DNA from: an uncultured Nitrosomonadaceae bacterium | GTDB lineage: Bacteria > Pseudomonadota > Gammaproteobacteria > Burkholderiales > Nitrosomonadaceae | Reading direction: 5' to 3' | Assembly: GCA_943787405.1 (NCBI GenBank) | Contig: CALSMH010000004.1 | Location: 1-64,000, forward strand | DNA length: 64,000 nt | In this document: piece by piece, positions 37,051 to 42,199 of the stretch | How positions within the stretch are numbered: the first letter of the stretch is position 1 | Layout of the letters: each line of letters begins with the position of its first letter | Made by a program: the position numbers and the translations under genes | The notes under the pieces: generated by a model | What the model was told of the DNA's origin: nothing | The model's input: only the letters and a program-made list of their open reading frames with translations | Database searches by the model: none

Positions 37051-38562
37051 GTGAAATTTAGCATAGATAATGGAAGTCCGGCAAAGCAATCCTGTTCTTG
37101 TGTAGTAGTTGGTGTGTTTCAAACTAGAACACTAAGTGAAGCTGCTAAGACCTTGGACAAGAATTCAAATGGGTATATCAGCAACATATTAAATAATGGA
37201 GACATGGAAGGAAAATTGGGCTCTACTCTACTACTGCATAACGTTCCTAACATCACATGCAATAGAGTATTACTAGTTGGACTTGGGGAAAAAAATAAAT
37301 TTTGTGACCGAGAGTATCAAAGTGCAGTTCGTTCTACTTTCAACAGGCTATATGAAACAGGAGCATCAAATGCAACACTTTTTTTAATAGAGGTGCCTGT
37401 AAAAAACCGTAAAATTTCCTGGAAAATATCCCATACAGTGATTGTGGCGATGGAAAGCGTTTATAAATCTGATCAACTTAAAAGCAAGCGTACTAATAAA
37501 AAGCAACAGCTGCAAAAAGTGACGCTGAGTACAACAGGAAAATTGGACTCTGTCACAGGTAAGAAAGCGCTGCAATGGGGACTTGCTACAGCGCATGGTA
37601 TGAATCTAGCGAAAGATTTAGGCAACCTTCCGCCAAATATTTGTACTCCTACCTATCTGGCAAAACTAGCCCTAAAGATGGCCAAAGACTTTAAGCTTAA
37701 AGCCGCTATTTTAGAGCAAAAAGATATGAAGAAACTTGGCATGGGCTCGCTGCTATCGGTAGCACAAGGTAGCAATGAACCTGCCAAACTTATTACACTA
37801 GAATACTGGGGGTTAAGTAAAAAAGAAAAGCCTATCGTGCTAGTTGGCAAAGGAGTCACTTTCGATACTGGTGGCATTTCTTTAAAGCCTCCAGCAAATA
37901 TGGACGAAATGAAATACGATATGTGTGGAGCTGCTAGCGTATTTGGCACTATTACTGCAATTGCTGAGATGAAACTTCCCATAAACGTGGTCGGCATTAT
38001 TCCTACCACCGAGAATATGCCTGGTGGCAAAGCTACTAAACCTGGAGACATTGTTACTAGCATGTCGGGGCAAACCATTGAAATACTTAATACTGATGCA
38101 GAGGGAAGATTAATATTATGCGATGCATTGACTTATGCTGAACGCTACAAACCTGAGGTAGTCATAGATATAGCAACTCTTACTGGAGCCTGCGTAGTTG
38201 CATTAGGTCGCGTAGCATCCGGATTACTCAGCAACGATGATAAGCTGGCAACTGAACTATTGAGCGCCTCTGAGAAAGCCGCTGATCCTGCATGGCATCT
38301 ACCGCTATGGAGCGAATATGACGAGCAACTACAAAGTAATTTTGCTGACATGGCAAATATCGGGGGACGCGATGCAGGAACTATTACAGCTTCCTGCTTT
38401 CTATCACGCTTCACAAAAGAATATCGCTGGGCACACTTAGACATTGCTGGTACTGCCTGGACATCTGGAAAAAAGAAAGGCGCAACTGGCCGACCAGTGC
38501 CGCTTCTTACACAATTCGTTACTACACGTGCAACTAAAAAAGGTTCCGAAAAAAAATCATGA
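37051..38562 (+). CDS. pepA: Leucyl aminopeptidase
   Basis: This 503-residue M17 aminopeptidase removes N-terminal residues from peptides and in E. coli also binds DNA as a Xer accessory factor. The two-metal active site is in LVGKGVTFDTGGISLKPP (Lys and Asp) and the signature ILNTDAEGRLILCDALTYAE near residue 343. The segment DMCGAASVFGTITAIAEM is also diagnostic. The start is a GTG with a GGAGTG sequence just upstream. It overlaps holC by four bases (ATGA), the conserved pepA-holC-valS series. Confidence 0.96.
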   Translation: MKFSIDNGSPAKQSCSCVVVGVFQTRTLSEAAKTLDKNSNGYISNILNNGDMEGKLGSTLLLHNVPNITCNRVLLVGLGEKNKFCDREYQSAVRSTFNRLYETGASNATLFLIEVPVKNRKISWKISHTVIVAMESVYKSDQLKSKRTNKKQQLQKVTLSTTGKLDSVTGKKALQWGLATAHGMNLAKDLGNLPPNICTPTYLAKLALKMAKDFKLKAAILEQKDMKKLGMGSLLSVAQGSNEPAKLITLEYWGLSKKEKPIVLVGKGVTFDTGGISLKPPANMDEMKYDMCGAASVFGTITAIAEMKLPINVVGIIPTTENMPGGKATKPGDIVTSMSGQTIEILNTDAEGRLILCDALTYAERYKPEVVIDIATLTGACVVALGRVASGLLSNDDKLATELLSASEKAADPAWHLPLWSEYDEQLQSNFADMANIGGRDAGTITASCFLSRFTKEYRWAHLDIAGTAWTSGKKKGATGRPVPLLTQFVTTRATKKGSEKKS

Positions 38563-38981
38563 CTTTAATCGATTTCTATTCTGGTTCCAATGATAAGCTA
38601 CTAACTGTCTGTCGTCTTAGTGCGAAAGCTATTCAACAAAATTTAAAAATAACAATTTACACTCCTGATACTAAAATTGCAGACCAGCTCGATAGTTTGC
38701 TTTGGAATTTTTCTTCTACTGCATTTATTCCCCACTGCCGCGTAGAAGATAAACGTGCATTTGAAACTCCAGTGACAATTAGCCAAAATGAAGAGCCACT
38801 CCCACATGATAATATTTTAATTAACCTACATGACAGACACCCCCCTTTCTTCAGCCGCTTTCTTCGGTTAATTGAAATTTCTGGAACTACAGATGAAGAT
38901 ACCGAAGCGGCACGAATACGATACCGTTTCTACAAAGACAGAGGATATGAAATCCGCCACCATAAGCTTAAAAGCGCCTAA
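38559..38981 (+). CDS. holC: DNA polymerase III chi subunit
   Basis: This 140-residue protein is HolC (chi), which links the clamp loader to single-stranded DNA-binding protein. Family landmarks are the N-terminal IDFYSGSNDKLLTVCRLSAKA, the TPDTKIADQLDSLLWNF segment near residue 44 and the RFRFYKDRGYEI-like ending (RYRFYKDRGYEIRHHKL). It overlaps the pepA stop by four bases and is followed after 32 bases by valS. Confidence 0.93.
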   Translation: MTLIDFYSGSNDKLLTVCRLSAKAIQQNLKITIYTPDTKIADQLDSLLWNFSSTAFIPHCRVEDKRAFETPVTISQNEEPLPHDNILINLHDRHPPFFSRFLRLIEISGTTDEDTEAARIRYRFYKDRGYEIRHHKLKSA

Positions 38982-39013: not shown

Positions 39014-42000
39014 ATGCCAGTTACCTTCTCTATGAAAAGAAAAAATAGATCTTCGTCAAAGTCTGTTAAAAATAAAAAATCAAATAAATTGGGTGCGCAG
39101 TCACGTGCGAATCAAGACAAACCCAAGATTACTGATAGTATCCCTACGCTTACTGAGAAAGTATTTCTGTCTCCCAAGACCTTATCAAGTCAGTCTAGAC
39201 TCTCACTACCAAGGAAAACATCAGTTCCCATTCTTAAGGAGACAGAAACGATTTCAGAATCTGATACACAAAATTCACTTACTAATACACTGAGCCAAAA
39301 TTTACAAAATCAACCTTCCGCCAAGAAAAATTATGCCAAACTGGCTGAACAACTACAAACACCAACCGATAAAATGCCTGCACCTTCTAATATAATAGAA
39401 AATCTTCCAGAATCGCCAAATTTAGCTCCTCCTTTAATGGCCCTACCTAAAACCTTTGAGCCCCAACCAATAGAAAAACGCTGGTATCAAGCTTGGCAGT
39501 CGGCTGGCTATTTTGAGCCTAGCATTACTCAAGGAACTGATAAAACAATCAATTCTTATTGCATAATGCTGCCGCCACCAAATATTACTGGCACTCTGCA
39601 TATGGGGCATGCATTCCAGCACACTATTATGGATGCGCTTACTCGTTATCACCGAATGCTTGGAGATAACACACTGTGGCAGCCCGGAACGGATCACGCA
39701 GGAATAGCCACCCAAATTGTGGTTGAACGACAATTGGAAAGCCAAAATATAGACCGGCATGATCTCGGGCGTCAGGAGTTTATCAATCGGGTATGGCAGT
39801 GGAAAGAACAATCCGGCTCTACCATTACTCGACAAATGAAGCATTTAGGCACTTCATGCGACTGGTCACGAGAAAGATTTACGATGGATGAAGGATTGTC
39901 ACGAGCCGTAACAGAAGTATTTGTGCGACTTTACAAGGAAGGCTTAATCTATCGTGGCTGTCGACTTGTAAACTGGGATCCTGTGTTACAAACCGCAGTA
40001 TCAGATCTGGAAGTAATATCAAATGAAGAAGATGGTTTCCTCTGGCATATTTGCTATCCGTTCGAAAACGGATTAAATAAAAATGATGGGCTAGTTGTTG
40101 CCACCACTCGTCCAGAAACAATGTTGGGTGACATGGCTGTAGCTGTACATCCTGATGATGTACGATACCAGCATCTTATTGGAAGCCGCGTATGCTTGCC
40201 ACTATGCCAGCGTAGTATTCCCATCATTGCCGACACTTATGTAGACCCAAGCTTTGGAACTGGTTGTGTAAAAATTACCCCGGCTCATGATTTCAATGAT
40301 TATCAAATAGGCCAACGCCACGGGCTTACTACACAAAGTATTCTCACACTAGATGCAAAAATCAATGATCTTGCTCCTTCTGAATACCAGGGCCTTGACC
40401 GTTTTGATGCCCGAGAAAAAATTATTACAGATCTAGAAACACAGGGACTACTAGTTGAAACTAAACCACATAAACTTATGGTTCCACGTAGCGATCGTAC
40501 AGACTCTATTATAGAGCCAATGCTTACTGATCAATGGTATGTAGCAATGAAAGAGATGGCTAAAAATGGCCTCGATGTCGTCGCAAATGGAGAAGTGAAA
40601 TTTGTCCCAGAAAATTGGACCCATGTTTACAATCAGTGGCTGGAGAATATCCAGGACTGGTGCATCTCCCGCCAATTGTGGTGGGGGCATAGAATTCCGG
40701 CTTGGCATGATGAGGATGGCAATGTTTATGTGGCCCACAACCTGGAGGAAGCTCAACAACAAGCAGGGAAGCGTACACTTACACAAGATGAAGATGTGTT
40801 AGACACTTGGTTCTCATCAGCATTGTGGCCATTCTCCACCCTAGGATGGCCAGAGAAAACGCCAGAACTAAGAACATTTCTCCCAACCTCAGTACTTGTT
40901 ACCGGGTTCGATATAATTTTTTTCTGGGTAGCACGTATGATAATGATGTCCCTACATTTCACAGGAAGAATACCATTTCAAGAGGTATATGTAACCGGCC
41001 TAATTCGAGATTCAGAAGGTCAAAAAATGAGCAAGTCGAAGGGTAATGTACTTGATCCGCTAGATCTTATAGACGGGATTACCTTGCCAGCTTTAATTGC
41101 TAAGCGTACTACCGGGCTAATGAACCCCAAGCAGGCAGATTCTATCGAAAAAATCACACGAAAAAATTACCCTGAGGGTATAACCGCATATGGTACTGAT
41201 GCACTACGTTTCACTTTTGCGAGTCTTGCTTCGCATGGAAGAGATATAAAATTTGATTTGCAACGTTGTGGGGGGTACCGAAATTTCTGCAACAAATTCT
41301 GGAATGCGACCAGATATGTGATAATGAATTGCGAAGGAAAAGATGTGGGCTTAGATAAGAGTTTACCTTTAGAATTTTCTGCTGCAGATGAATGGATTGT
41401 TGGGCGCCTACAACAAGCAGAAAGTGTAGTAGAGAAATCGTTTCATGATTACCGGTTTGATTTAGCAGCACGTGAGATATATGAATTTGTTTGGGACGAG
41501 TATTGTGACTGGTACCTTGAACTTGCGAAGGTTCAATTAAATGGAAACAATGAATCTGTACAACGCGCCACCCGTCACACCTTAGTAAATGTACTAGAAA
41601 CAACACTAAGACTAGCTCATCCTATTATCCCTTTTATTACAGAAGAATTATGGCAAAAAGTCTCGCCGTTATCAGGTAAGCATGGTGAAAGCATTATGCT
41701 TCAACCATATCCTAAAGCTGATCTAGCACACATCAATAAAAGCTCTATGGAGAAAATGCATACACTTAAAGAGATAGTTGGTGCATGTCGTACCCTACGT
41801 GGCGAAATGAATTTATCTCCAGCGATGAAGGTTCCGCTACTAGCCACGGGAAATGAGGGGGCCCTAACTGAATTTTTGCCCTATTTAACCGCATTGATTA
41901 AGTTATCTAGCGTAGAAGTCATCCAAGGCGAGTTACCAGATGCAGATGCGCCGGTTGCAGTTGTAGGCGAATTCAAACTTATGCTGAAAATAGAAATAGA

Positions 42001-42199
42001 TATAGCTAAAGAGCGCGAGCGCCTAACAAAAGAAATAACACGTATTGAATTGGAAATTACAAAATCGGAAACCAAGCTTTCCAACCCTAATTTCGTCAAG
42101 CGTGCACCAATAAAAGTAGTCACTCAAGAAAAAGATCGTTTATCTGATTTTAGATCAAAACTTGAAAAAATAACTAAATTATTTCAGAAATTAGATTAA
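39014..42199 (+). CDS. valS: Valyl-tRNA synthetase with a long extra N-terminal region
   Basis: This 1061-residue class I synthetase charges tRNA-Val. The catalytic domain has the HIGH-type motif in [14 protein letters not shown] near residue 192 and the KMSKS motif in [14 protein letters not shown]. The editing domain lies between them ([17 protein letters not shown]), and the C terminus is a coiled coil. The usual ValRS start corresponds to the ATG at 39437 ([10 protein letters not shown]). Before it, the frame stays open for about 141 more codons, rich in Ser, Thr, Lys, Gln and Pro, with the segment [10 protein letters not shown] near residue 41. No ribosome-binding site is clear at either start. 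The extension may be a small neighbouring gene fused to valS; translation from 39437 alone remains possible. Confidence 0.95.

Follow-up and report, generated by a model that had tools for sequence, protein, structure and literature searches.

The window analysed here is a 64,000-nucleotide stretch of DNA from an uncultured Nitrosomonadaceae bacterium, in which an open reading frame of 1061 aa (39014-42199) runs straight through the canonical start of valyl-tRNA synthetase (ValRS) at 39437. This arrangement raises the questions of where the additional N-terminal residues come from, whether the junction is genuine, and which protein or proteins are made from the locus.

Organization of the valS locus

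The features of the locus are given in Table 1. The ValRS core matched the PRK05729 model with 1284.9 bits (cut-off 704) from residue 146 onwards, covering model positions 2-858 of 860. This is a full-length match to the valine-tRNA ligase family. The preliminary description of this DNA had placed the usual bacterial ValRS start near 39437. The same description had reported a Ser/Thr/Lys/Gln-rich stretch without a stop, fused in frame to ValRS. The open frame through 39437 and the composition (rich in Ser, Lys, Leu, Pro, Asn, Thr and Gln) were both confirmed, and none of 5000 base-shuffled copies of 39035-39436 was open (39035 as the left edge, here and in some other comparisons, leaves out the start Met at 39032). 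The length had been put at about 141 residues. However, the Met at 39014 is missing in the related loci L002 and L003, whereas the Met at 39032 (MKRKN...) is common to both, which sets the extension at 135 residues. By eye, no Shine-Dalgarno-like sequence was seen before either start in the window locus. The first 33 residues after the Met include 12 basic and 1 acidic residue. The tail starts at 39032, directly behind the holC stop at 38981, and the leucyl aminopeptidase-like ORF ahead of holC is, from its sequence, presumably pepA.

Table 1. Features of the holC-valS locus in the window
Feature	Position	Strand	Basis
Leucyl aminopeptidase-like ORF	37051..38562	+	open reading frame
holC, chi subunit of DNA polymerase III	38559..38981	+	PF04364, E 1.2e-37
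X-derived N-terminal ValRS extension, 135 codons	39032..39436	+	open frame, shared Met, X-model score, dN/dS
IPTLTEKV motif	39140..39163	+	IPTLTExV invariant in 9 aligned fused proteins
VPILKETE, remnant of X C-terminal helix	39224..39247	+	alignment with relatives
Linker, former valS leader, now coding	39317..39436	+	silent change lower than in ValRS in 31/31 pairs
TATAAT, valS promoter -10 box inside fused frame, read xxT-ATA-ATx	39391..39396	+	
ValRS core, canonical start ATG 39437	39437..42199	+	PRK05729, PF00133, PF08264, PF10458

Origin of the extension

In most of 18 unfused loci from two other genera of the family, a separate gene, here termed X, lies between holC and valS, and Nitrosospira and Nitrosomonas relatives also carry an unfused X there. 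A small gene with an IPxLTE-type motif at this junction had been anticipated, and it was found in many Betaproteobacteria. The unfused X proteins (113-136 codons in the eight aligned) have an N-terminal helix, a disordered stretch, the IPxLTE-type motif and C-terminal helices; a structure model of one of them places helices at residues 10-29, 87-102 and 108-123, with pLDDT under 50 at residues 33-64. Two unfused-X models gave the window tail 19.8 and 24.1 bits, compared to 12.7 and 10.2 for the best of 2000 shuffles. The second model was built from nine unfused X proteins, eight of them from the family of the window and one from another, and its score bears out the earlier suggestion that the extension derives from such a gene. 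Likewise, a profile of 13 relatives (11 unfused X and two fused proteins of the sister genus) found the window tail as its sole match in the whole genome (E 7.9e-7). As judged from sequence, the extension is an eroded copy of X. In the alignment most of the X helix is eroded in the window tail; the model of the full-length fused protein was unusable (mean pLDDT 38).

The best preserved part of the tail is the motif: IPTLTE is its longest invariant stretch in nine aligned fused proteins. Across X the motif reads [IVL]P-x-L-T-[ED]-x-V in 69 of 73 sequences (46 unfused less one, 17 fused and 11 gammaproteobacterial pieces), and at the two positions that precede it 51% and 43% of residues are acidic, compared to 17% of residues overall; in L072 the motif is replaced by IPTLID. 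The window sequence VPILKETE, first taken for a similar second motif, aligns with the helix 'DAALKETG' of relatives and is no copy of IPxLTE.

Apart from one lineage, the X proteins scanned had no match over cut-off in Pfam (11 unfused and one fused) or, for five proteins, in NCBIfam; a PDB sequence scan of X also gave none, and a Foldseek search with the X model returned no match (best E 4.6). The excepted lineage is DUF2486 (PF10667). Its match in genome G140 (C23:566992-567219) sits in an X-type gene right behind holC that encodes an IPVLTDV motif and a C-terminal helical sequence; the gene is unfused, and valS is on another contig. The Burkholderia DUF2486, a protein of unknown function, is X. 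The PF10667 model was found in 1 of 120 genomes of the order and had no match to the window extension at E up to 1, and a literature search on DUF2486 gave nothing related, as judged by title.

X travels with holC

We read 80 valS upstream regions of the order and found holC upstream in 52. X lies behind holC in 45 of these 52 loci (32 by the strict motif, four by eye and nine fused) and was not found in seven. Among the 28 genomes without holC upstream of valS, holC was sought in 27 and found in 26, with X directly behind it in 16. Of these 16 genomes, four have valS within 4 kb and 12 have it on a different contig or no closer than 80 kb; since these are draft genomes, a different contig is no proof of distance. 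The persistence of X behind holC in 12 genomes with valS elsewhere identifies holC as its partner: X travels with holC, not with valS. In gammaproteobacterial loci with holC, the motif was found in 8 of 19 by rule and in L244, L256 and L259 by eye. These data expose a widespread holC-linked family that lies, in the X proteins scanned, outside the cover of Pfam and NCBIfam, the DUF2486 lineage excepted.

The fusion in related genomes

Within the genus of the window, the tail is in frame in five of the six other genomes with a readable valS (G001, G002, G004, G005 and G007, of which G004 is cut by its contig end); G003, the seventh other genome, yielded no true valS match. The sixth, G006, lacks X and encodes an ordinary ValRS (L015), which indicates that the tail is dispensable and probably accessory. 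The sister genus has the extension in all seven genomes with a readable valS, and two further genomes gave no valS match; no fusion was seen in the 18 loci read from the family's two other genera. The closest named record to the window is MAG RIS_SAG_02 (L157). The preliminary description had left the choice between fusion by evolution and fusion by an indel. That this frame is likewise open in 12 more genomes, five of the genus and seven of the sister genus, excludes a sequencing indel, and the evolutionary origin stands. For the same reason it is vanishingly unlikely that a sequencing or assembly error joined two genes, given that the junction is the same in all 12 and that we found no point in favour of an error. 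The window fusion is thus real, old and evolutionary, and its occurrence in two genera of the Nitrosomonadaceae may reflect one event or two. One sister-genus locus (L010) has about 42 extra in-frame residues between a worn C-terminal helix and the promoter box.

Recurrence of the X-ValRS fusion

The X-ValRS fusion is recurrent. Ten of the 80 loci of the order are fused, from families f6, f12, f26, f37, f46 and f48, with further fused members of f26, f37 and f46 in L144-L146. Two named uncultured betaproteobacteria (L200 and L221) and three gammaproteobacteria of three families (L244, L249 and L256) are also fused, so that, besides the Nitrosomonadaceae, in-frame fusions were read in six families of the order and in three outside it. 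In a quickly built tree of 117 ValRS N-termini, in which L015 was entered as 'separate' on a loose motif although it has no X, the fused state needs at least nine changes, of which well-supported branches alone force two. GC-rich genomes easily yield long open frames; the X motif itself is nonetheless in the valS frame. In the literature, we found no title on a holC-valS pairing of this kind or on an N-terminally extended or fused ValRS, and nothing on the valyl-tRNA synthetase of Nitrosomonadaceae.

A promoter box inside the fused frame

In unfused loci of the order, valS is preceded by a conserved promoter box. Of 66 unfused loci, 50 have a perfect TATAAT within the interval 20-62 nt upstream of the valS ATG (observed spacings, 27-51 nt), compared to a mean of 0.87 and a maximum of four loci in shuffles; the rule for locating the valS start codon left 22 of the 88 unfused and 7 of the 26 fused loci out of this count. 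The consensus across the order is TCcG.TATAAT.gccGgTTTtcc. A TATAAT is similarly placed in 15 of 29 gammaproteobacteria, and is found in none of 23 alphaproteobacteria within 330 nt upstream of valS. No -35 box was detected at 15-19 nt in the 50 unfused loci (2.48 matches, compared to 2.61 in shuffles). The window has a perfect TATAAT, the sigma-70 -10 box, at 39391, a site that a sigma-70 scan of the + strand did not call. The GC-rich stretch that follows the box, GCCGGTTT, is lost in the genus of the window.

The fused loci that keep the box always read it as xxT-ATA-ATx (21 of 28, from the order and the named records). By contrast, the box-ATG distances of 21 of the 50 unfused loci set the TAA of the box in the valS frame, where it would block a fusion. 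The seven loci without a perfect box are L007 (TAAAAT), L143 (same residues), three of f37 and two of f26; the three gammaproteobacterial fusions have none, TATCAT or TACAAT nearby, giving 21 of 31 overall. In the f37 loci (L125, L126 and L145) the box is lost and the Met is kept. In f26 (L106 and L144) the box and the Met before the ValRS core are both gone, and in L106 the nearest Met is some 30 codons further upstream; in this family ValRS seems to be made solely with a tail or at least a portion of one.

Within the genus of the window and the sister genus, the box is kept in 11 of 13 fusions, although ValRS dS values of up to 2 occur inside each genus. Six fused loci are GC-rich (L071-L073, L082, L140 and L200), and none of the 61 other Ile codons of their upstream frame is ATA, whereas the box keeps ATA. 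In the sister genus (L006, L008-L010 and L012), ATA makes up 4-6% of the Ile codons in ValRS and 18-40% in the remainder of the upstream frame, and because ATA is common there the codon argument is weak for this genus. Each of the 31 pairs shows less silent change in the linker than in ValRS (e.g., 0.60 vs. 2.23 and 0.20 vs. 1.68); these pairs share ancestry and compare a linker of 26-40 codons (40 alignment columns). In the X part, silent change is lower than in ValRS in 15 of 31 pairs. Reduced silent change would be expected if the linker overlapped a promoter.

Predicted products of the locus

Because the fused frame crosses the valS promoter box, an additional normal ValRS starting at 39437 is likely. 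On the sequence comparisons described above, we consider it probable that this old in-frame X-valS fusion gives two products, a long X-ValRS and a normal ValRS from the retained promoter. The stop of X was lost, and translation would continue across the leader of valS with its promoter box and on into ValRS. The long X-ValRS would come from mRNA arriving from the pepA-holC side, and transcripts initiated at the retained TATAAT would give the normal ValRS (ATG 39437). Catalysis would be that of an ordinary ValRS, with the tail as an accessory. More tentatively, the tail in this genus may act as a disordered basic tether, with IPTLTEKV docking on a partner, perhaps HolC. If this reading holds, an essential housekeeping gene would have been swallowed repeatedly, promoter included, by the frame of its upstream neighbour, with the box kept inside the code.

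Each product could also be the only one. If the long protein alone were made, TATAAT would be an inert relic or would be kept for its residues. The lack of a -35 box, the loss of the GC-rich stretch behind the box in the genus, and the fact that the f26, f37 and gammaproteobacterial fusions live without a perfect box are in line with this. We nevertheless consider it unlikely, since the box persists in 11 of 13 fusions of the two genera, the six GC-rich fused loci keep ATA in the box alone among the upstream Ile codons, and silent change is reduced in the linker. It is somewhat less likely still that normal ValRS alone is made from 39437, the upstream frame being merely open and X untranslated. 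The conserved promoter box and canonical Met, the erosion of X in the genus and its absence in G006 are in line with it. However, the X part is under amino-acid constraint (dN/dS 0.20-0.51 among relatives, in the 30 pairs out of 31 with differences in that part), the frame is kept through the linker in 12 aligned relatives, and f26 has no internal Met. We therefore favor the reading with two products.

Known systems and the possible role of X

Some aminoacyl-tRNA synthetases carry appended domains, in which an extra domain is joined to a complete synthetase, and here too the extra part joins a complete synthetase. Unlike in those enzymes, the appended part of X-ValRS is a neighboring operon gene, and the frame holds the synthetase's own promoter box.

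PopZ (PF10691), the alphaproteobacterial polar hub, has a helix, a disordered linker and C-terminal helices (PMC5686542), and so does the X model. In 23 of 30 alphaproteobacterial loci (L032-L061), popZ is the gene immediately upstream of valS; popZ is thus linked to valS, whereas X is linked to holC. An hhalign comparison of X and PopZ gave a probability of 19%; full-length scores were above those of shuffles and reversals, whereas the C-terminal part scored no better than when reversed. Homology of X to PopZ is weakened by both the linkage to holC and the equal score of the reversed C-terminal part.

A further comparison is with HolD (psi), the chi partner of Gammaproteobacteria, X being likewise encoded next to chi. 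Psi (PF03603) was found in 2 of 120 genomes of the order, and PF03603 had no Pfam match on 12 X proteins. With this insensitive model, among 29 gammaproteobacterial genomes psi was over cut-off in none of the 11 that have X, in one of the eight that lack it (G401) and in one of the ten in which X was unread (G464, where no holC was found beside valS); weaker hits occurred in one genome with X (with an internal stop) and in two without. The SSB of the window genome ends in DMDDDIPF, and the X motif resembles this tail over a short stretch; the SSB tail acts with a free C-terminus. According to a review (PMC3290774), chi binds the SSB C-terminus, psi is very divergent and is listed for Gammaproteobacteria only (others having perhaps diverged beyond detection), and the anchoring of chi where psi is not found is left open. 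Taken with the SSB-tail-like motif and the rare detection of psi in the order, this makes X a candidate chi partner where psi is undetected, and a concrete candidate for the anchoring question raised in that review. In this proposal, which we regard as quite unlikely to hold in full, (D)DIPxLT[ED] would mimic the SSB tail (DDDIPF), and the recurrent fusions would tie a tRNA synthetase physically to the replication machinery, with the internal promoter supplying free ValRS.

Much longer X-type frames were also observed. In L273, L280, L281, L282, L285, L287 and L291, very long frames of this type (378-506 codons) lie behind holC. IPVL motifs are repeated in several of them, and some contain Pro-Ala-rich repeats. 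The gammaproteobacterial frame of L244 has 1555 codons, in which an X of the IPLLEAIV type is joined to ValRS by way of a long stretch resembling a coiled coil.
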